From NCBI RefSeq assembly GCF_000230835.1, contig NZ_CM001240.1, positions 4,986,779-5,050,778 on the forward strand: a DNA stretch of 64,000 nt. The letters run 5' to 3'. How positions within the stretch are numbered: the stretch's first letter is position 1; every line of letters starts with the position of its first letter. Both the position numbers and the translations under genes were made by a program. Shown in pieces: positions 40,355 through 49,363 of the stretch. The notes beneath the pieces were generated by a model. That model was given only the letters and a program-made list of their open reading frames with translations, was not told where the DNA came from and did no database searches. The DNA is from Clostridium sp. DL-VIII (GTDB lineage Bacteria > Bacillota > Clostridia > Clostridiales > Clostridiaceae).

Positions 40355-40449
40355 TCAATATAATAATTTTATTTAACTCTTATGTATATTTCTAAAATTT
40401 CTGAGAACTATATATGAATAAGATTTATTTTTACAGGAGGTAAATGTAT

Positions 40450-41370
40450 ATGAAGGTTGGAATTCCCAAAGGATTATTGAATTATAAGTATTATAAATTC
40501 TTTGAAGAGTTTTTTCATGAGCTTGGAGCTGAAATTATTACTTCACCAGATACAAATAAACAAATACTCGATGAAGGTGTTAAATATTGTGTAAATGATG
40601 CATGTTTACCTATTAAAGTATTTCACGGACATGTTGCCTCTATTAAAGATAAGTGCGATTTAATAGTTATACCTAGAATTATGCAGATATGCGAACATGA
40701 ATTTATTTGTCCTAAATTTTGTGGTCTGCCAGAAATGATTATAAGCAGTATACCAAATATGCCCAAAACTACTATGGCTCCTATTTATGCTACTTCAAAA
40801 GAAAATTTGTATAAGTGGGTTAAAGACACAGGAAGAATGATTACTACTAATAAAAATAAAATTAAAAAGGCTTATTTAAAAGCACTAAGTGAACAAAATA
40901 AACTTAATCTTGGAATTAAAACACAGGATTGTGAAATAAATATTGCATTGATTGGACACCCTTATAATATTTATGATAATTTCATAAATATGAATTTAGT
41001 TAAAAAACTCAAAAAATTAGGCATAGGAGTTATAACAGAAGAATTTATAGATGAAACTTTTATAAATGATAAAGTAAAATACTTATTTAAACGACCTTTT
41101 TGGACTTTTGCACGAAACGCCTATGGTGCATCAATATATCTCGCAGAAAATAAAAAAGTCGATGGAATAATATATATATCATCTTTTGCATGCGGTATAG
41201 ATTCTGTAGTTATAGACCTTATAAAAGAAAAGACAAAAAATTTTCCTTTTTTAATTCTAAAAGTTGATGAACATACAGGTGAATCAGGCTTTGATACACG
41301 AATAGAAGCCTTTGTTGACATGTTAGAAAGGAGGCAACTGTATGAAAATTATGGCTCCTCATTTAGGTAA
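40450..41370 (+). CDS. Acyl-CoA dehydratase activase-related protein (DUF2229-like), first subunit
   Basis: Protein of 306 aa related to the DUF2229 part of large 2-hydroxyacyl-CoA dehydratase activators. N-terminal KVGIPKGLLNYKYYKFFEEF and the Cys cluster CVNDACLPIKVFHGH, QICEHEFICPKFCGLPE look like Fe-S ligands; the C-terminus has DGIIYISSFACGIDS and LKVDEHTGESGFDTRIEAF. The ATG at 40450 has GGAGGT 8 nt upstream; the ATG at 40444 is too close. First of three overlapping genes. In many bacteria these three parts are one ~1000-1400-aa protein. No dehydratase subunits lie nearby, so the substrate is unknown. Confidence 0.8.
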   Translation: MKVGIPKGLLNYKYYKFFEEFFHELGAEIITSPDTNKQILDEGVKYCVNDACLPIKVFHGHVASIKDKCDLIVIPRIMQICEHEFICPKFCGLPEMIISSIPNMPKTTMAPIYATSKENLYKWVKDTGRMITTNKNKIKKAYLKALSEQNKLNLGIKTQDCEINIALIGHPYNIYDNFINMNLVKKLKKLGIGVITEEFIDETFINDKVKYLFKRPFWTFARNAYGASIYLAENKKVDGIIYISSFACGIDSVVIDLIKEKTKNFPFLILKVDEHTGESGFDTRIEAFVDMLERRQLYENYGSSFR

Positions 41371-42439
41371 TACATATCTTGTGGCCAAAGCTGTCTTTGA
41401 TAAACTAGGTGTGGATTATATAATTCCAGAATTTAATAGTAAAAGAGCCTTAGAAATAGGTTCTAAGTACTCACCAGAAGATATGTGTCTGCCATTTAAA
41501 CTCATGATGGGTAATTATATTCAAGGCATCGAAAAAGGGGTAGATACAATAATAATTACTGGAAGCTGCGGTCCATGCAGATACGGTGAATATTGTGAAT
41601 TACAAATCAGCATATTAAAAAAATTAGGGCATAATTTAAATTTTATAGTTCTAGATAAACCATCAGCAATAGGAATAGATGAGTTTTTAAAAAGGATATC
41701 CTTTGTTTCTTCAAATAGTACTAAAACAACAATTCAAAAACTTAATGCTTTGCGTATGGGATATAAGGTTCTAAATCTAACTGATAAGATAGAAGCTAAA
41801 GCACATTATCTAGCTGGTTACGAAAAAAACAAGCATGAATGTAAGCATTTATTGAATAAATGTAAGATTGACGCAGTTAATAGTAACACTCCTGAAGAAA
41901 TGATAAAAATATTAGATTATTATAATAAAAAATTTGATTCTATTGAAATATGCAAAGACAAGAAACCTCTTAAGATAGCAATAATAGGTGAAATATACAC
42001 TATCATAGAACCATTTTCCAATCTTTATATTGAAGATAAACTTATGGATTATGGGGTTTCAACTAAGAGGAGATTAACCCCAAGCTGGTGGGCAAAAGAT
42101 TGTTTAATGTCAGTTTTTAACCTTAATTCTTTAGATATAAGAAGAGCCTCTAGGGAATACTTACCTTTATATATTGGAGGACATGGCAGAGAATGCATTG
42201 GCGAAGCAGTAATGGCAACTAAAGAAGGTTTCGATGGTGCTATTCAAATATTCCCCATGGGGTGCATGCCTGAAATTGTATGTAAAGCTCTGCTTCCTGC
42301 TATATCTAAAGATAAAGATTTTCCTATCTTAACCCTAGTCGTTGATGAAATGACAGGGGAAGGCGGATATATTACAAGAATAGAAGCATTTTTAGACTTA
42401 TTAGAAAGGAGAAAACAAAATGTATTATCTAGGTGTTGA
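41342..42439 (+). CDS. Acyl-CoA dehydratase activase-related protein, second subunit
   Basis: Protein of 365 aa with the pattern APHLGNTYLVAKAVFDKLGV at the N-terminus, Cys-bearing SPEDMCLPFKLMMGNYIQG and TGSCGPCRYGEYCELQ, and the C-terminal CMPEIVCKALLPAISKDKDF then VDEMTGEGGYITRIEAFLDL. That ending parallels the ending of the gene before it (VDEHTGESGFDTRIEAFVDM), so the two look like divergent paralogues. It overlaps the upstream gene by 29 nt and the downstream gene by 20 nt, which implies translational coupling and a complex of fixed ratio. The conserved Cys could hold a [4Fe-4S] cluster. Confidence 0.8.
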   Translation: MKIMAPHLGNTYLVAKAVFDKLGVDYIIPEFNSKRALEIGSKYSPEDMCLPFKLMMGNYIQGIEKGVDTIIITGSCGPCRYGEYCELQISILKKLGHNLNFIVLDKPSAIGIDEFLKRISFVSSNSTKTTIQKLNALRMGYKVLNLTDKIEAKAHYLAGYEKNKHECKHLLNKCKIDAVNSNTPEEMIKILDYYNKKFDSIEICKDKKPLKIAIIGEIYTIIEPFSNLYIEDKLMDYGVSTKRRLTPSWWAKDCLMSVFNLNSLDIRRASREYLPLYIGGHGRECIGEAVMATKEGFDGAIQIFPMGCMPEIVCKALLPAISKDKDFPILTLVVDEMTGEGGYITRIEAFLDLLERRKQNVLSRC

Positions 42440-43394
42440 TGTTGGATCAGTGAGTACAGATATTGTTCTTTTAAATAATAATCTTGAAGTTATAGATAAA
42501 CTATATTTAAGAACAAAAGGCAAACCTATAAATGCCATTCAAGAAGGCTTCAAAATTTTAAAAGAAAAATATTCGGATGAACAAATAAAAGCTGTTGGAA
42601 CTACAGGCAGCGGAAGGCAGATTTCCTCATTTATAATAGGTGCAGATGCAGTAAAAAATGAGATAACAGCTCATGCGTGTGCAGCTCTTAGCATTGATGA
42701 AGATGTAAGAACTATTATAGAGATAGGGGGGCAGGATTCAAAAATTATAATTTTAAGGGAAGGAATACCTATAGATTTTGCTATGAACAATGTGTGCGCC
42801 GCGGGAACTGGCTCTTTTCTTGATAGGCAGGCGGAAAGACTTGGTATTCCAATAGAAGAATTCGGAAATTATGCATTAAAATCAACAACATCTTTAAGAA
42901 TAGCTGGAAGATGCGCGGTTTTTGCTGAATCTGATATGATACATAAGCAACAGCTTGGCTATGATGAAGCTGACATAATAAATGGCTTATGTGAAGCTCT
43001 TGTTAGAAATTATCTCAATGATATTGCTAAAGGAAAAGACATATTTCCTAAGATATTCTTTCAAGGCGGTGTAGCTGCAAATAAAGGAATGAAAGCCTCC
43101 TTTGAAAAAGCTTTAGGCTGTGAAGTCTATATTCCTGAACATTATAATGTTATGGGTGCTATAGGTGCAGCAATAATTGCAAAAGAAACTGTTCTTAAAA
43201 CTGGTTCAACAAATTTTAAAGGCTTTGATATAGCAGATTCCAATTTTATTTCTAACAGCTTTGAATGCGATGGCTGTTCTAATAGATGTGAAGTTGTAAG
43301 AATAAAAGATGACGAGACTATAATTGGATGTTTTGGAGACAGATGTGGCAAATGGACTAATTCCATTAGCCATAATATTGATAAAGGTGCATAG
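42420..43394 (+). CDS. BadF/HgdC-type ATPase, acyl-CoA dehydratase activase
   Basis: ASKHA-fold ATPase of 324 aa that drives low-potential electron transfer in 2-hydroxyacyl-CoA dehydratases and benzoyl-CoA reductases. ATP loops: LGVDVGSVSTDIVLL, TTGSGRQI and EIGGQDSKII; the Cys pair that bridges a [4Fe-4S] between two monomers is in NNVCAAGTGSFLDRQ and RCAVFAESDM. A Cys-rich extension follows (FECDGCSNRCEV, GCFGDRCGKW) that ordinary HgdC lacks and the large activators have. Third gene of the overlapping operon. Confidence 0.88.
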   Translation: MYYLGVDVGSVSTDIVLLNNNLEVIDKLYLRTKGKPINAIQEGFKILKEKYSDEQIKAVGTTGSGRQISSFIIGADAVKNEITAHACAALSIDEDVRTIIEIGGQDSKIIILREGIPIDFAMNNVCAAGTGSFLDRQAERLGIPIEEFGNYALKSTTSLRIAGRCAVFAESDMIHKQQLGYDEADIINGLCEALVRNYLNDIAKGKDIFPKIFFQGGVAANKGMKASFEKALGCEVYIPEHYNVMGAIGAAIIAKETVLKTGSTNFKGFDIADSNFISNSFECDGCSNRCEVVRIKDDETIIGCFGDRCGKWTNSISHNIDKGA

Positions 43395-43567: not shown

Positions 43568-44488
43568 TTATCTGTATTTATAATAATCCATTACAGAAAC
43601 TTCTCTAAATCCGAAATATTTATATATATTAAGAGCTCTATCATTTTTTGATTCTACATCCAATTCAATATCTACTATTTCCTTATTATTTATTAATTTT
43701 AAGGCTTCCTTTAATGTTTCTTTTCCATATCCTTTTCCTATAAACCATGGCAGAATTCCAAATCCACATATAAAAGCTGAATTCTCTTCATATTCAATTT
43801 TAATTTTTCCAATAACTTCACCATTAACCTCTGCCATATATACATTATTAATTGAAACTTCTTGATCTATTGAACTATTTGCTTCGTTATCATTTAAAGA
43901 ATCTTCAATTTCTTCTTCATCACTAAAAAATATTGAATCCTGTCTTCTGATTTCATTTTTGTCTCTATTCTCAGCTTTTCTTAAATTAACAGAGTTAACA
44001 TTTCCTAAAGAAACTTTATCAGTTAACTTCATCCTATATTCTGAGAAGTCATAGTTTCCTCCATGATTTTTTATAAATTCACTTCCTAAATCAGACTTAC
44101 CATCTGTTAATAATAATATCTTCTTAAAATTTCTTTTGCTGCATTCGTCTATTACAAGTTTAAAAAGTTTTTCAAAGATCCCTTTCTTTCTCCATTTAGG
44201 ATGAGTCATACCATTTATTTCACCTATGCCTCTACCACCAAAACTTGAAATTCCAATATAGGCTGCTAAATTTCCATCTATATAATATAGAAATTCATTT
44301 ATACTTTTTAATCCAATATCACTTTTATTGTTCTCATCATATAGGCTTAGCTTATAATCCAATTCTAATTTCAAATTAACCCCATTTTCCTGATTACAAA
44401 GCTTTTCTAATCTGTTTATCTCATCATATTCTTCCTTATTTATATATTCTTTTAGGCAAATGAATTCATTTAATTTTGTTTCTTGCAT
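43568..44488 (-). CDS. GNAT family acetyltransferase (two-domain)
   Basis: Protein of 306 aa with two GNAT-like halves. The first (residues 1-150) has GEINGMTHPKWRKKGIFEKL, matching the acetyl-CoA loop; the second (about 165-306) has ICGFGILPWFIGKGYGKETL (motif A, Q/RxxGxG-like) and NDRALNIYKYFGFREVS (motif B). Acceptor unknown; candidates include ribosomal or small-molecule amines. It starts directly after the rsgA stop, so the two are one operon, which suggests a link to ribosomes or translation. Start ATG is preceded by GGGGAG. Confidence 0.85.
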   Translation of the reverse strand: MQETKLNEFICLKEYINKEEYDEINRLEKLCNQENGVNLKLELDYKLSLYDENNKSDIGLKSINEFLYYIDGNLAAYIGISSFGGRGIGEINGMTHPKWRKKGIFEKLFKLVIDECSKRNFKKILLLTDGKSDLGSEFIKNHGGNYDFSEYRMKLTDKVSLGNVNSVNLRKAENRDKNEIRRQDSIFFSDEEEIEDSLNDNEANSSIDQEVSINNVYMAEVNGEVIGKIKIEYEENSAFICGFGILPWFIGKGYGKETLKEALKLINNKEIVDIELDVESKNDRALNIYKYFGFREVSVMDYYKYR

Positions 44489-44489
44489 T

Positions 44490-45560
44490 TTAAAATCTCC
44501 CCTTTAATTCTTTTTGAGTTTTAGATATATTCTTGAACTTTGCTTTCTCTTTGGCTTGAAGTATTTTGCTTTCTTTTCTTTGTGCAAATTCCGCCTCTTT
44601 TTTTATCTTCATATAATTCTCCCATCTTTCCTTAGAAAGCTCGCTATTTTCTAATGCAGTCTTTACTGCACAACCTGGCTCTTTACCGTGAGCACAATCT
44701 TTAAATTTACATTTTTTAGCTAATTCTTCAATATCATCAAATGCTGCATCTAGACCTTCACTGACATCCCACATTGCAAGTTCTCTCATTCCAGGAGTAT
44801 CAATGATCATAGAATTATTTTTAAGTATTATGAGCTGCCTGTGAGTTGTAGTATGTCTTCCTTTGCTATCAGCTTCACGAATACTGTTTACCTTCATAAT
44901 TTCTTCCCCTAAAAGTGCATTAACTAATGATGACTTTCCGATACCTGATGATCCTAGAAACACACCAGTTTTATATGGGGCTGTATATTCCCATAACTCT
45001 TCCAATCCTTCTCCTGTTAAAGAGCTTACTGCAATTATAGGAACAAACGGTGCTATCTTTTCAATTTTTTGTCTTTGTAGACTGCAATCACTGCATAAAT
45101 CTAACTTTGTCATGATAATTATTGGAGTACCGCCACTTTGCCATGCAGCTGCTAAGTATCTCTCCATTCTCTTAATGTTAAAGTCATTATTAAGTGAAAT
45201 CATTATGAAGACATAATCAAAATTAGCTGCCACAACTTGTTCAATTTCATTAAAAGAATCCATTCTTGAAAATTTACTTTTTCTCTCAAATACATGATAT
45301 ATAATGTCATTTCCTAATGAATTATGCTTAATTAAAACAAAATCTCCAACTGTAGGATATTCCTTATATAATTTTTCATTATAAAATAATGATCCTTTTA
45401 ACTTTCCATTACTTTCTCCATACTCTGAAATCAACTTATATTGTTCTCTTTGTACCTCAATTACTCTCGCAGGTATAATATCTACTGCCGATAACTTAAA
45501 TTTTTTTACCTGCTTTTGAAAAAAATCATCATATCCGTACTTTTCTATATTATTATTCAT
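44490..45560 (-). CDS. rsgA: RsgA-type circularly permuted GTPase
   Basis: Ribosome-assembly GTPase of 356 aa. Order: N-terminal OB-fold (residues 20-95), a permuted G domain with G4 MTKLDLC, G1 GSSGIGKSSLVNAL, G3 DTPGMRELAMWD, then the zinc-binding tail CKFKDCAHGKEPGC. It is longer than the usual 290-aa clostridial RsgA and has the C-terminal basic extension KILQAKEKAKFKN, so it may be a paralogue. The ATG overlaps the stop of a 22-codon leader ORF. A long leader with an intrinsic terminator precedes it. Co-transcribed with the GNAT gene. Confidence 0.92.
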   Translation of the reverse strand: MNNNIEKYGYDDFFQKQVKKFKLSAVDIIPARVIEVQREQYKLISEYGESNGKLKGSLFYNEKLYKEYPTVGDFVLIKHNSLGNDIIYHVFERKSKFSRMDSFNEIEQVVAANFDYVFIMISLNNDFNIKRMERYLAAAWQSGGTPIIIMTKLDLCSDCSLQRQKIEKIAPFVPIIAVSSLTGEGLEELWEYTAPYKTGVFLGSSGIGKSSLVNALLGEEIMKVNSIREADSKGRHTTTHRQLIILKNNSMIIDTPGMRELAMWDVSEGLDAAFDDIEELAKKCKFKDCAHGKEPGCAVKTALENSELSKERWENYMKIKKEAEFAQRKESKILQAKEKAKFKNISKTQKELKGRF

Positions 45561-45621
45561 CTAATTCCTCCATGCTAATTAAGTAACTTTTAAATTTTAA
45601 TTTTAGTTTTAAAGCTTTCAT
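45553..45621 (-). CDS. Leader peptide of 22 aa overlapping rsgA start
   Basis: Reads MKALKLKLKFKSYL and then ISMEELDE. It has a strong GAAAGGAG ribosome binding site 9 nt before the ATG, and its stop codon lies 4 nt inside the rsgA start region, overlapping it by 8 nt. Its alternating Lys/Leu sequence and position resemble leader peptides of translation-attenuated genes. Translation of rsgA is probably coupled to it. No homology is claimed. Confidence 0.55.
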   Translation of the reverse strand: MKALKLKLKFKSYLISMEELDE

Positions 45622-45688
45622 TATCACATCACTCCTTTCAATAATTAATAAGTTTTATTTCTTACCTTCCTAAAAATGGGTAAAAAAA

Positions 45689-45729
45689 TCCCGCAGACAT
45701 TAACCTTAAAATGGCTACTACCTGCGGGA
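45689..45729 (-). terminator. Attenuator hairpin in the rsgA leader
   Basis: On the minus strand the arms TCCCGCAG (45729-45722) and CTGCGGGA (45696-45689) pair and are followed at once by TTTTTTT. It sits between the promoter and rsgA, so it can stop transcription before the gene. A second CCGCAG copy upstream (45864-45870) could pair with the same 3' arm and prevent its formation. Confidence 0.8.
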
Positions 45730-45942
45730 ATATTAATAAACAGATATACGCTCTGCTTTGCTATTCACCTAGAAATATGATAAATAATTAATAAAATAAG
45801 TATATATTACTTATTTTAAATGTTAATCATAATAGTCAATCTTTTATGAAAGGTTAGAATATTCTGCGGAAATGCAACACAAACAAAGGGTATAATTCCC
45901 CTTTAAAAAATTACAAAATTACGTTTTCGCCCATATTTAGTT

Positions 45943-45975
45943 TTATTTTAACATCACCTTTACATTTGCTCTCAT
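45943..45975 (-). CDS. Leader peptide of 10 aa in rsgA 5' UTR
   Basis: MRANVKVMLK with its own AAAGGAG ribosome binding site 9 nt before the ATG at 45975. It lies about 60 nt after the likely transcription start and before the hairpins. The setting is that of an attenuator leader ORF. Confidence 0.5.
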   Translation of the reverse strand: MRANVKVMLK

Positions 45976-46043
45976 ATAACATTTCTCCTTTCATAAGATT
46001 CATTATCATCTTTTTTATAATAAATCTTTTTATAACTATATAA

Positions 46044-46073
46044 AGCATACTATAACAAATAAGCACTTGTCAA
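46044..46073 (-). promoter_or_regulatory. Promoter of the rsgA leader transcript
   Basis: TTGACA (46073-46068) and TATGCT (46049-46044) with an 18-bp spacer, both on the minus strand. This starts a leader of about 475 nt ahead of rsgA. Confidence 0.65.
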
Positions 46074-47730: not shown

Positions 47731-48750
47731 TTAATATTTATCCACTACAGTTCCAAGTATGGCATGTTTTATAATTGGATTATTTTGAATCCCTTTAAGT
47801 TCCTTTGGACTTCCTATAACTACAGCTCCACCTATCTTAATATTCTTTTCATCTATATTTTCAATATATTGGGTATCTCCTATTTCTTTTAACTGCTTAA
47901 GTGCAGTTTTGAAATTTTCCATCCTGCTATCAACATCCACTCTAAATTCACCAGCCCCATCAGTGGACTTTATTCCTATAACATTAAATGCTGTATTTTT
48001 TAATTCAACTGCATGTTCTTTTTCATCTTCAGAATTATTATCAACCCAATAAAATGTTATTAAATTGCTATCTAGCATTTTGTTTACTTCTTCATAACTA
48101 TATTCTTTATTGAAGGACAATGCTATTTCAACTATTTTATCATTATCAATTTCATTTAAGTATTGAAAATCATTTATTATATTTTCTTTATCAGAAGATG
48201 ATGTATTATCAGGAATTTTATTATTTTCTGTTTGATAATCATATATGTTTTGTTCATAATTAACATATGGATATAAAAATTGCAGTTTTCTTAGTCCATA
48301 AACATCGCTGGATCTTTCACTTATATTATCATTTAATGGGATATTGCTTATCGCCAACCTTTCTTTTGACATTTTATCTTTTAAAAGACCTCCTAAATAA
48401 TTAGTAGAACCAGCATAAATAACTTTGCCTCCAATTTTCTTTCCATACTCATAAGTACTCATATATTTAAAATATCCTGTTACTTCACATGTTTCTTTTC
48501 CTATATATTCATTTGGATTCATTATTACATTTTCCAATTCAAGTTTCTTTTCCTCCTTGGTATACGCATTTTCTATATATTTATGACTTGCAAAATTTAG
48601 AGTCAATATTCCTAAAATAATTATAATTAATGTTGAAATTATTGAAATTGTTATTAACTTTAAATTTAACTGTTTTCTTTTCTTTTTTATTTCTTTCTTG
48701 ATTTGATTCTCCATGTTATTTGAAAATATATCTTCAATATCTTTATTCAT
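47731..48750 (-). CDS. Membrane anti-sigma factor with sigma-regulator domains
   Basis: Protein of 339 aa with a cytoplasmic N-terminus (residues 1-40), one membrane helix (about 31-50, LKLITISIISTLIIIILGIL) and a 280-residue outside domain. The N-terminal motif and the C-terminal pattern (KTALKQLKEIGDTQYIENID) match the Sigma_reg_N/Sigma_reg_C anti-sigma family that partners ECF sigma factors of the YlaC type. I use the ATG at 48750, after GGAAGGTG, which overlaps the last eight bases of the sigma gene; the longer frame has no ribosome binding site. Its outside domain probably senses envelope stress. Confidence 0.82.
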   Translation of the reverse strand: MNKDIEDIFSNNMENQIKKEIKKKRKQLNLKLITISIISTLIIIILGILTLNFASHKYIENAYTKEEKKLELENVIMNPNEYIGKETCEVTGYFKYMSTYEYGKKIGGKVIYAGSTNYLGGLLKDKMSKERLAISNIPLNDNISERSSDVYGLRKLQFLYPYVNYEQNIYDYQTENNKIPDNTSSSDKENIINDFQYLNEIDNDKIVEIALSFNKEYSYEEVNKMLDSNLITFYWVDNNSEDEKEHAVELKNTAFNVIGIKSTDGAGEFRVDVDSRMENFKTALKQLKEIGDTQYIENIDEKNIKIGGAVVIGSPKELKGIQNNPIIKHAILGTVVDKY

Positions 48751-49228
48751 ATTTTTCACCTTCCCATATTTCTTTAAACCTATTTCTCGCTCTATAACAT
48801 AAAGTCTTTGCTGATCCTTCTTCAATATTAAGGAGATTGCCTATGCTCCTATAAGACATTCCCAAACTATATTTTAAAACTAGTAAGTTTTTTTCACTTT
48901 CTTTCATTGATGCTAAAATTCTATTAACCTCCATAGAATTATCTATATGTCCTATTTTAAAATCACTTTCAATAGTAGCATATAGTTCATTTGTTAAACT
49001 CACATTAATTTTACTTCTTTTATATAATGTATAAAATTTGTTAATAGAAACCTTAAACATCCATGCTTTTATATTTCCATCAATTAATATATCAATATTT
49101 TCATAAGTTTTAATGAACGTTTCCTGCACAATATCTTCTGCATCTTCCTTTGATGAACCTATTGAAATTAAATATTTGTAAATTATAGCTAAATCCTCTT
49201 TTATTAAACTGCATATATCATCCTTAAT
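48743..49228 (-). CDS. ECF RNA polymerase sigma factor
   Basis: Sigma-70 family factor. Region 2 is YKYLISIGSSKEDAEDIVQE then FIKTYEN; region 4 is YSLGMSYRSIGNLLNIEEGS. Partner of the anti-sigma gene that overlaps its 3' end. The start is uncertain: no ATG, GTG or TTG has a suitable Shine-Dalgarno near the first conserved residues, whereas an in-frame ATT at 49228 stands 5 nt after GGGGGGAG. I used it (161 aa). A GTG at 49267 or an earlier start at 49342 remain possible, but the residues there are hydrophobic or of unlikely composition. A nine-codon ORF with its own ribosome binding site precedes it (49242-49271). Confidence 0.85.
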   Translation of the reverse strand: MKDDICSLIKEDLAIIYKYLISIGSSKEDAEDIVQETFIKTYENIDILIDGNIKAWMFKVSINKFYTLYKRSKINVSLTNELYATIESDFKIGHIDNSMEVNRILASMKESEKNLLVLKYSLGMSYRSIGNLLNIEEGSAKTLCYRARNRFKEIWEGEKYE

Positions 49229-49363
49229 TTTTACTCCCCCCTTATGTCCACTTTTTAATGGTACCACACATATATAACTTTTTACTCCTTCAAAAGTGAA
49301 CACGATAATTAAAATTTTCCAAAAAAATAAACTTAAACACACATAAAAAACGTCTGCTTAAGC

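Follow-up and report, generated by a model that had tools for sequence, protein, structure and literature searches.

A conserved leader of an rsgA paralogue in Clostridium sp. DL-VIII, probably a uORF-dependent transcription attenuator

The gene of an RsgA paralogue (rsgA2) in Clostridium sp. DL-VIII is preceded by a leader with a short upstream open reading frame (uORF), which appears from comparative analysis to be a conserved RNA switch, spread more widely than the preliminary description of this DNA had supposed. Most probably the leader is a transcription attenuator that depends on the uORF, of the same kind as vmlR and hflXr but itself undescribed. It lies on the minus strand of the analysed stretch of 64,000 nucleotides (the window; contig NZ_CM001240.1, positions 4,986,779 to 5,050,778), and the coordinates below are those of the window.

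The rsgA2 operon and its setting

RsgA2 (356 amino acids, 44490..45560, minus strand) is assigned to the RsgA GTPases by its domain (PF03193, E 5e-50) and by the NCBIfam cutoff (TIGR00157, 170.3 bits against a cutoff of 100), and solved RsgA structures match it by sequence. It contains what we take to be the P-loop and a C-x4-C-x-H-x5-C segment. One base past rsgA2, on the same strand, lies the gene of a GNAT acetyltransferase of 306 amino acids (43568..44488), in which PF00583 matches two stretches. Five other genomes have a gene of the same GNAT family immediately after the leader.

The genome (6.48 Mb, one contig) has two rsgA copies among its matches. The other copy encodes 290 amino acids, is 33% identical to RsgA2 over 258 aligned positions and is followed by frames which we take to be ribulose-phosphate epimerase-like and thiamine-pyrophosphokinase-like. 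Covariance models find a single leader in this genome, that before RsgA2; upstream of it, on the same strand, is an amino-acid permease gene. Elsewhere in the window, a sigma-factor-like frame (199 amino acids) overlaps a membrane-anchored frame (364 amino acids) at 47731-49342 and has by eye the look of a sigma/anti-sigma pair, and three adjoining plus-strand frames at 40444-43394 look by eye like a 2-hydroxyacyl-CoA dehydratase with its activator.

Architecture of the leader

The elements named in the preliminary description (promoter, 10-codon ORF1, both hairpins, CCGCAG, a run of seven T and 22-codon ORF2) were all located on the minus strand, from 46073 to 45553. The promoter TTGACA-18-TATGCT (46044..46073) has its boxes at 46073-46068 and 46049-46044, separated by an 18-nt spacer; the match alone is not significant (18 sites found against 20.5 expected), and similar TTGACA-type boxes were seen by eye upstream of ORF1 in many relatives. 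ORF1 (MRANVKVMLK*, 45943..45975, ATG at 45975 and TAA at 45943) is preceded by its ribosome binding site, GAAAGGAG. Within ORF1, the sequence GGUGAU (45953..45958) contains a valine GTG, the codon at position -4 from the stop, and is complementary to AUCACC of the 16S rRNA 3' end. One exact copy of the 16S 3'-end motif was found in the 6.48 Mb genome; other copies may differ.

The leader has two helices, P1 and P2, and all four of their strands are supported by covariation and swap tests. The 5' strand of P1, UAUGAAAGG (45987..45995), overlaps the ORF1 Shine-Dalgarno sequence, and its 3' strand, CCUUUCAUA (45845..45853), is an anti-Shine-Dalgarno mimic, so that P1 covers the ribosome binding site of ORF1. 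The 5' strand of P2 (45919..45930) begins 12 nt past the ORF1 stop and pairs with a 3' strand at 45866..45877. P2 is an addition to the earlier layout; the AAAGGG/CCCTTT hairpin listed there (about 45905-45884) sits within the P2 loop.

The candidate antiterminator strand CCGCAG...AACC (45852..45869, with CCGCAG at 45869-45864) is the best partner region in the window of the 3' arm of the intrinsic terminator T2. T2 and its T run occupy 45682..45729, the hairpin TCCCGCAG...CTGCGGGA (45729-45689, -21.8 kcal/mol) being followed by seven T. ORF2 (22 codons, 45553..45621) overlaps the rsgA2 start at 45560. The leader as a whole folds with a z of -4.06 against 100 dinucleotide shuffles. Directly 3' of the T run, a conserved CCCAUUUUUA is found in the window (45680-45671) and in relatives, and it is a near-complement of UAAAUAUGGGC past the ORF1 stop.

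Conservation and spread

The preliminary description had made its proposal depend on conservation of the leader in close relatives. The leader stands before 17 of 17 rsgA2 orthologues of 59-75% identity (distinct loci, the window counted; 71-75% within the genus and 59-70% further out) and its 5' domain covaries, so the proposal of an attenuator-type leader on an rsgA paralogue holds in this respect. ORF1, a AACCUUUC strand (AACCUUUU in two) and a terminator are present at all 17 loci; in L031 the stretch from ORF1 to the AACCUUUC-type strand is much shorter. Loci among L025-L030 and L033 that duplicate others were counted once, and the leader counts over rsgA2 orthologues leave out 15 loci of 28-39% identity (L034-L048).

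Of the 68 genomes in the genus, 23 match RsgA2 at E 1e-60; the 10 of at least 71% identity carry the leader and the 13 of 42-47% do not. Three genus genomes (G002, G003 and G013) have the leader, no RsgA2 match at E 1e-60 and a double GNAT behind the leader. In G013 the leader (L060) is found where an rRNA operon ends, about 240 nt past a 5S rRNA gene.

A covariance model built from 16 leaders, the window included (R1), matched 13 of the 68 genomes searched in the genus and 41 of 206 in the family (16 of 46 genera). With a second model, R2, built from 49 leaders, matches came from 50 of 225 genomes in the order, 23 of 391 in the class and 7 of 398 in the phylum. The genome sets overlap, each containing the window's genome, and the searches used strict filters by which weak matches are lost. 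The window's own R1 match (E 5e-24) is no evidence, since the window is among the 16 sequences of the model. The 79 leaders counted below leave out the three weakest order-level matches (L148-L150, E 0.006-0.009) and the phylum matches L173-L178, which were looked at separately.

The window leader has no match among 72,556 plasmid records, its core motif was not found in exact form in viral contigs, and a mobile origin was rejected. Rfam 15 gave no covariance-model match in the window at the gathering score; on the 16 leader loci it gave six matches up to E 5, none of them at the leader.

Covariation of P1 and P2

In a plain MAFFT alignment of 16 leaders, both-sided changes occur in only 3 of 22 pairs. 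With 49 leaders the number rises to 12 of 22, compared with 3-8 in slid controls and a mean of 7.8 in shuffles, 2 of 500 of which reach 12. With 79 leaders, 16 of 22 pairs change on both sides and 94.4% of cells are paired; slid controls give 3-10 pairs and 38-59% of cells, while shuffles average 12.2 pairs and none of 500 reaches 16.

The 49- and 79-leader alignments were fitted to the model, and swap tests were therefore added, in which each strand is paired with the partner strand of other leaders (78 of the 79 leaders; L143, which has no T2, was left out). The native partner was better in 70 of 78 leaders for P1 (p 1.6e-11) and in 74 of 78 for P2 (p 4.7e-14); as the leaders are related, these p values are not those of independent cases. 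P2 is seen by eye to be rebuilt with other letters in different groups, for example as GCGAAAAUG/CAUUUUUGC and GUUCAAAAGG/CCUUUUGAAC. The default structure thus takes in the uORF region through two covarying helices.

Terminator and candidate antiterminator

A T2-type terminator lies between ORF1 and the gene in 78 of 79 leaders, L143 being the exception, and a second, weaker terminator (T1) precedes T2 in 52. The competition of CCGCAG for the CTGCGG arm of the terminator, proposed in the preliminary description, is good in the window, where nothing pairs better with the T2 loop and 3' arm than the CCGCAG...AACC strand (-21.3 kcal/mol, z -4.6), but it does not co-vary across leaders, the native combination with the T2 3' arm being better in only 44 of 78 (p 0.07). 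This strand holds the best partner of the T2 3' arm in 17 of 49 leaders of the family set and 6 of 29 of the class set, with mean z of -1.8 and -0.4 (30 simple shuffles each). Two other targets were rejected: no upstream partner for the T2 5' arm, as in the usual antiterminator, rises above shuffles on average (mean z about -0.1), and with T1 as the target the native combination is better in 24 of 52. The candidate antiterminator uses the 3' arm of T2 and so would have no kinetic head start.

Masking everything to 12 nt past the ORF1 stop flips the predicted fold of the window from T2 to the antiterminator, but footprint-sized masks leave T2 in place at nearly all positions. In equilibrium folding of 14 leaders under such masks, most positions leave T2 close to its free value, and in the window a mask of only the first 22 nt of ORF1 with the preceding sequence does not flip the fold. 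T2 falls clearly in three leaders: in the window from 0.93 to 0.65 when two ribosomes are placed, in L099 from 0.89 to 0.59 with the mask at the stop codon, and in L152 from 0.95 to 0.76 and 0.64 at codons 1 and 3; L032 shows a slight drop at codon 2 (0.80). In the free fold, P1 is not predicted in L007 and hardly in L099. The link from ribosome to terminator is the weak step of the model because of the failed swap test and the footprint scan of 14 leaders.

An automatic search located the rsgA start in 42 of 59 leaders examined, and ORF2 ends beyond it in 23 of these 42. From this overlap, translational coupling is suspected but not claimed.

Constraint on ORF1

An ORF1 of 8-12 codons with a Shine-Dalgarno sequence of its own, defined by script as starting just behind P1 and ending before P2, is present in 79 of 79 leaders (10 codons in 56; ATG in 78 and TAA in 78). 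Codon -4 from the stop is GTG in 77 and GTA in two. Codon -5 ends in G in all 79, whether it stands for K, E, M, L, R, G or Q; at codon -3 the first base is a purine in 76 leaders, and 65 have ATT or GTT there. GTG makes up only 9% of the 878 valine codons in the long ORFs of the window, and the constraint is therefore on the nucleotides of ORF1. The covariance models themselves reward GGUG; yet the 17 loci found by protein orthology have GTG in 17 of 17. GGUGRUU (65 of 79) can pair over its full length with GAUCACC of the 16S 3' end, wobbles allowed, and the distance from the ORF1 stop to P2 is 10-13 nt in 78 of 79.

Across the 79 leaders the constraint bears on the nucleotides of ORF1 more than on a drug-stalling peptide. 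A conserved stalling peptide was rejected: the valine (79 of 79) and the following isoleucine or valine (70 of 79) are the only residues retained, and codon usage suggests a constraint on the RNA. The Arg-Leu-Arg (RLR) macrolide motif was not seen by eye in the 79 ORF1 peptides. A second start codon (AUGGGC) past the ORF1 stop was also discarded, since it is not kept in the class-level leaders.

With the internal Shine-Dalgarno-like GGUG, exactly three codons from GTG to the stop and P2 10-13 nt further on, a terminating or unrecycled ribosome could be held by its anti-Shine-Dalgarno sequence, abutting P2. It is conceivable, at rather less than even chances, that the switch senses the condition of a ribosome parked on the ORF1 stop codon and not the nascent peptide.

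Genes behind the leader

With unmatched frames under 150 amino acids skipped, the first gene encodes RsgA in 56 of the 79 leaders, a GNAT in eight, a CD3324-type protein in five, another small HTH-like protein in two (by eye) and an APH-like kinase in two. One leader each precedes an APH-like/GNAT fusion, a Tet-type GTPase (NF012153, E 6e-187, below its cutoff), a methyltransferase, RtcB, an ABC exporter (L144) and a 181-amino-acid GNAT-like frame (L003, by eye). In 59 of 79, one of the first three frames encodes RsgA.

In L101 an ABC-F protein of the ribosomal-protection-like type (above the NF000355 cutoff) follows rsgA2 under the same leader. In L169 the leader precedes an RtcB-PrfH pair, both above their cutoffs, which is a candidate ribosome repair operon; the title of PMC9223846 reports protection of an E. 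coli strain against colicin E3 by RtcB2-PrfH. Small HTH-like first genes (L094, L097, L140, L146, L164, L171 and L172) are CD3324/Mor-like in five cases and of another type in two, and the one protein of this other type that was scanned had no Pfam match. In L140 and L164, rsgA comes after the small HTH-like gene, while in L097, L144, L146, L171 and L172 the first three frames contain none of the listed genes.

The Tet-type ribosomal protection GTPase, ABC-F, RtcB-PrfH, APH-like kinases and GNATs fit a role in translation stress, with the reservation that GNATs and methyltransferases are common genes and that the list of related targets was compiled in hindsight. As the leader stands before ribosome-protecting and drug-modifying genes, it probably turns genes on when translation is in trouble.

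A second type of leader

All 13 rsgA2 orthologues of 42-47% identity (L012-L024) have another uORF leader, so that rsgA2 appears under uORF-type leaders of two designs. This uORF has 15-21 codons and, among the short ORFs listed, ends in 13 of 13 with AAG or GAG, a GNN codon (GTG in eight, GTA in three, GTT and GAA in one each), three codons and the stop. The distance from GNN to the stop is the same as in the first type, and on the reading of a parked ribosome this suggests the geometry itself as the sensor. Where leaders were compared by eye, the Shine-Dalgarno-like end of the uORF faces a complementary anti-Shine-Dalgarno element that could also pair with the rsgA Shine-Dalgarno sequence, and the uORF end may be kept for that reason. 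No terminator and no P1/P2 domain was seen in these leaders, and their 13 genomes have no R1 match.

Proposed mechanism and alternatives

Attenuation best explains what the sequences show: a leader whose parts are conserved, with covarying P1 and P2 helices, terminators and shared downstream genes. When ORF1 is free of ribosomes, P1, which pairs its Shine-Dalgarno sequence with AACCUUUCAU, and P2 would form, the strand between them would be kept off the terminator and RNA polymerase would stop at T2. A ribosome dwelling at the ORF1 end, with further ribosomes loading behind it, would block P1; the freed CCGCAG...AACC strand could then pair with the T2 loop and 3' arm, and the polymerase would read through into rsgA2 and the GNAT gene. 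ORF2 over the rsgA start may add a translational layer. We infer that ribosome dwelling is the signal and that it sets the switch to ON; the antiterminator step would connect the two, and ribosome-directed inhibitors would presumably be the natural inducer.

A general sensor of translation capacity with the opposite polarity, in which active ORF1 translation keeps the genes off and failed loading or elongation turns them on, is an unlikely reading. It would agree with the geometry of the second leader type in the 13 orthologues, where a ribosome standing at the end of the uORF would be expected to shut the gene off (partly by eye), but that type has neither a visible terminator and P1/P2 nor an R1 match; in the first type, most of the leaders tried are predicted to form P1 and P2 when no ribosome is present, with T2 then stable, and polarity as such is unreadable from sequence. 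Less likely still is a riboswitch or protein-binding leader, for example for self-feedback by RsgA2, with ORF1 a by-product: the RNA is strongly structured and rsgA is the first gene in 56 of 79, but ORF1 with its fixed stop context is present in 79 of 79, the leader also precedes APH-like, GNAT, Tet-type GTPase and RtcB-PrfH genes with no rsgA among the next genes, and no Rfam family matches. A constitutive 5' UTR whose ordinary terminator ends leftover transcription from the upstream permease gene on the same strand, with no regulation, is very improbable given the leader's own promoter-like site, its covarying helices and its conservation across differing genomic settings.

Relation to known systems

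The attenuator proposed here may be compared with systems described in the excerpted texts of the papers cited. The vmlR leader of Bacillus subtilis has a uORF within an anti-antiterminator, an antiterminator, an intrinsic terminator and a second, translational layer (PMC9226507). The rsgA2 leader shares the uORF and terminator, its antiterminator being a candidate and its translational layer suspected; unlike it, vmlR encodes an ABC-F and has the uORF MIN, while the rsgA2 leader has 8-12 codons and a separate P2 past the stop (compared by description). The hflXr/rli80 leader of Listeria also places a ribosome-GTPase homologue under a uORF attenuator with premature termination, but its 14-amino-acid uORF carries the RLR motif (PMC6310831), seen by eye in none of the 79 ORF1 peptides. 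The uORFC-6-1 motif of Bacillales likewise combines a uORF with covarying RNA, mostly before hflX, a ribosome-rescue gene; it differs in its structure wholly past the uORF start codon, its RLR peptide and its lineage, and RsgA has no occurrence in the main text of that paper (PMC8632094). The cplR leader of Clostridioides and Clostridium is a clostridial case of uORF control by transcriptional and translational attenuation, with a 3-codon uORF, MR[I/M], and an ABC-F target (PMC10201436). SCO6149 of Streptomyces coelicolor, an RsgA/EngC paralogue of the WblC regulon, similarly ties an rsgA paralogue to translation-targeting antibiotics; its control is by a transcription factor, and the excerpted text mentions no RNA leader (PMC7157823).

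By analogy, the leader would work most like those of vmlR, hflXr and cplR, and the WblC-regulon paralogue is a precedent for its target. Among the papers listed in PMC full-text searches, none was seen to describe an rsgA paralogue under the control of an RNA switch.

The spread of the leader marks a clostridial set of genes, the rsgA paralogue included, that may rise together under ribosome hindrance, and the leader offers a directly testable handle on which ribosome inhibitor opens the switch. If the parked-ribosome reading is true, the leader would be a generic reporter of termination or small-subunit trouble that drives a regulon of clostridial genes for ribosome repair, ribosome protection and drug modification, and the geometry of GTG, stop and P2 would be a new idea for ribosome sensing by a leader ORF without a stalling peptide.
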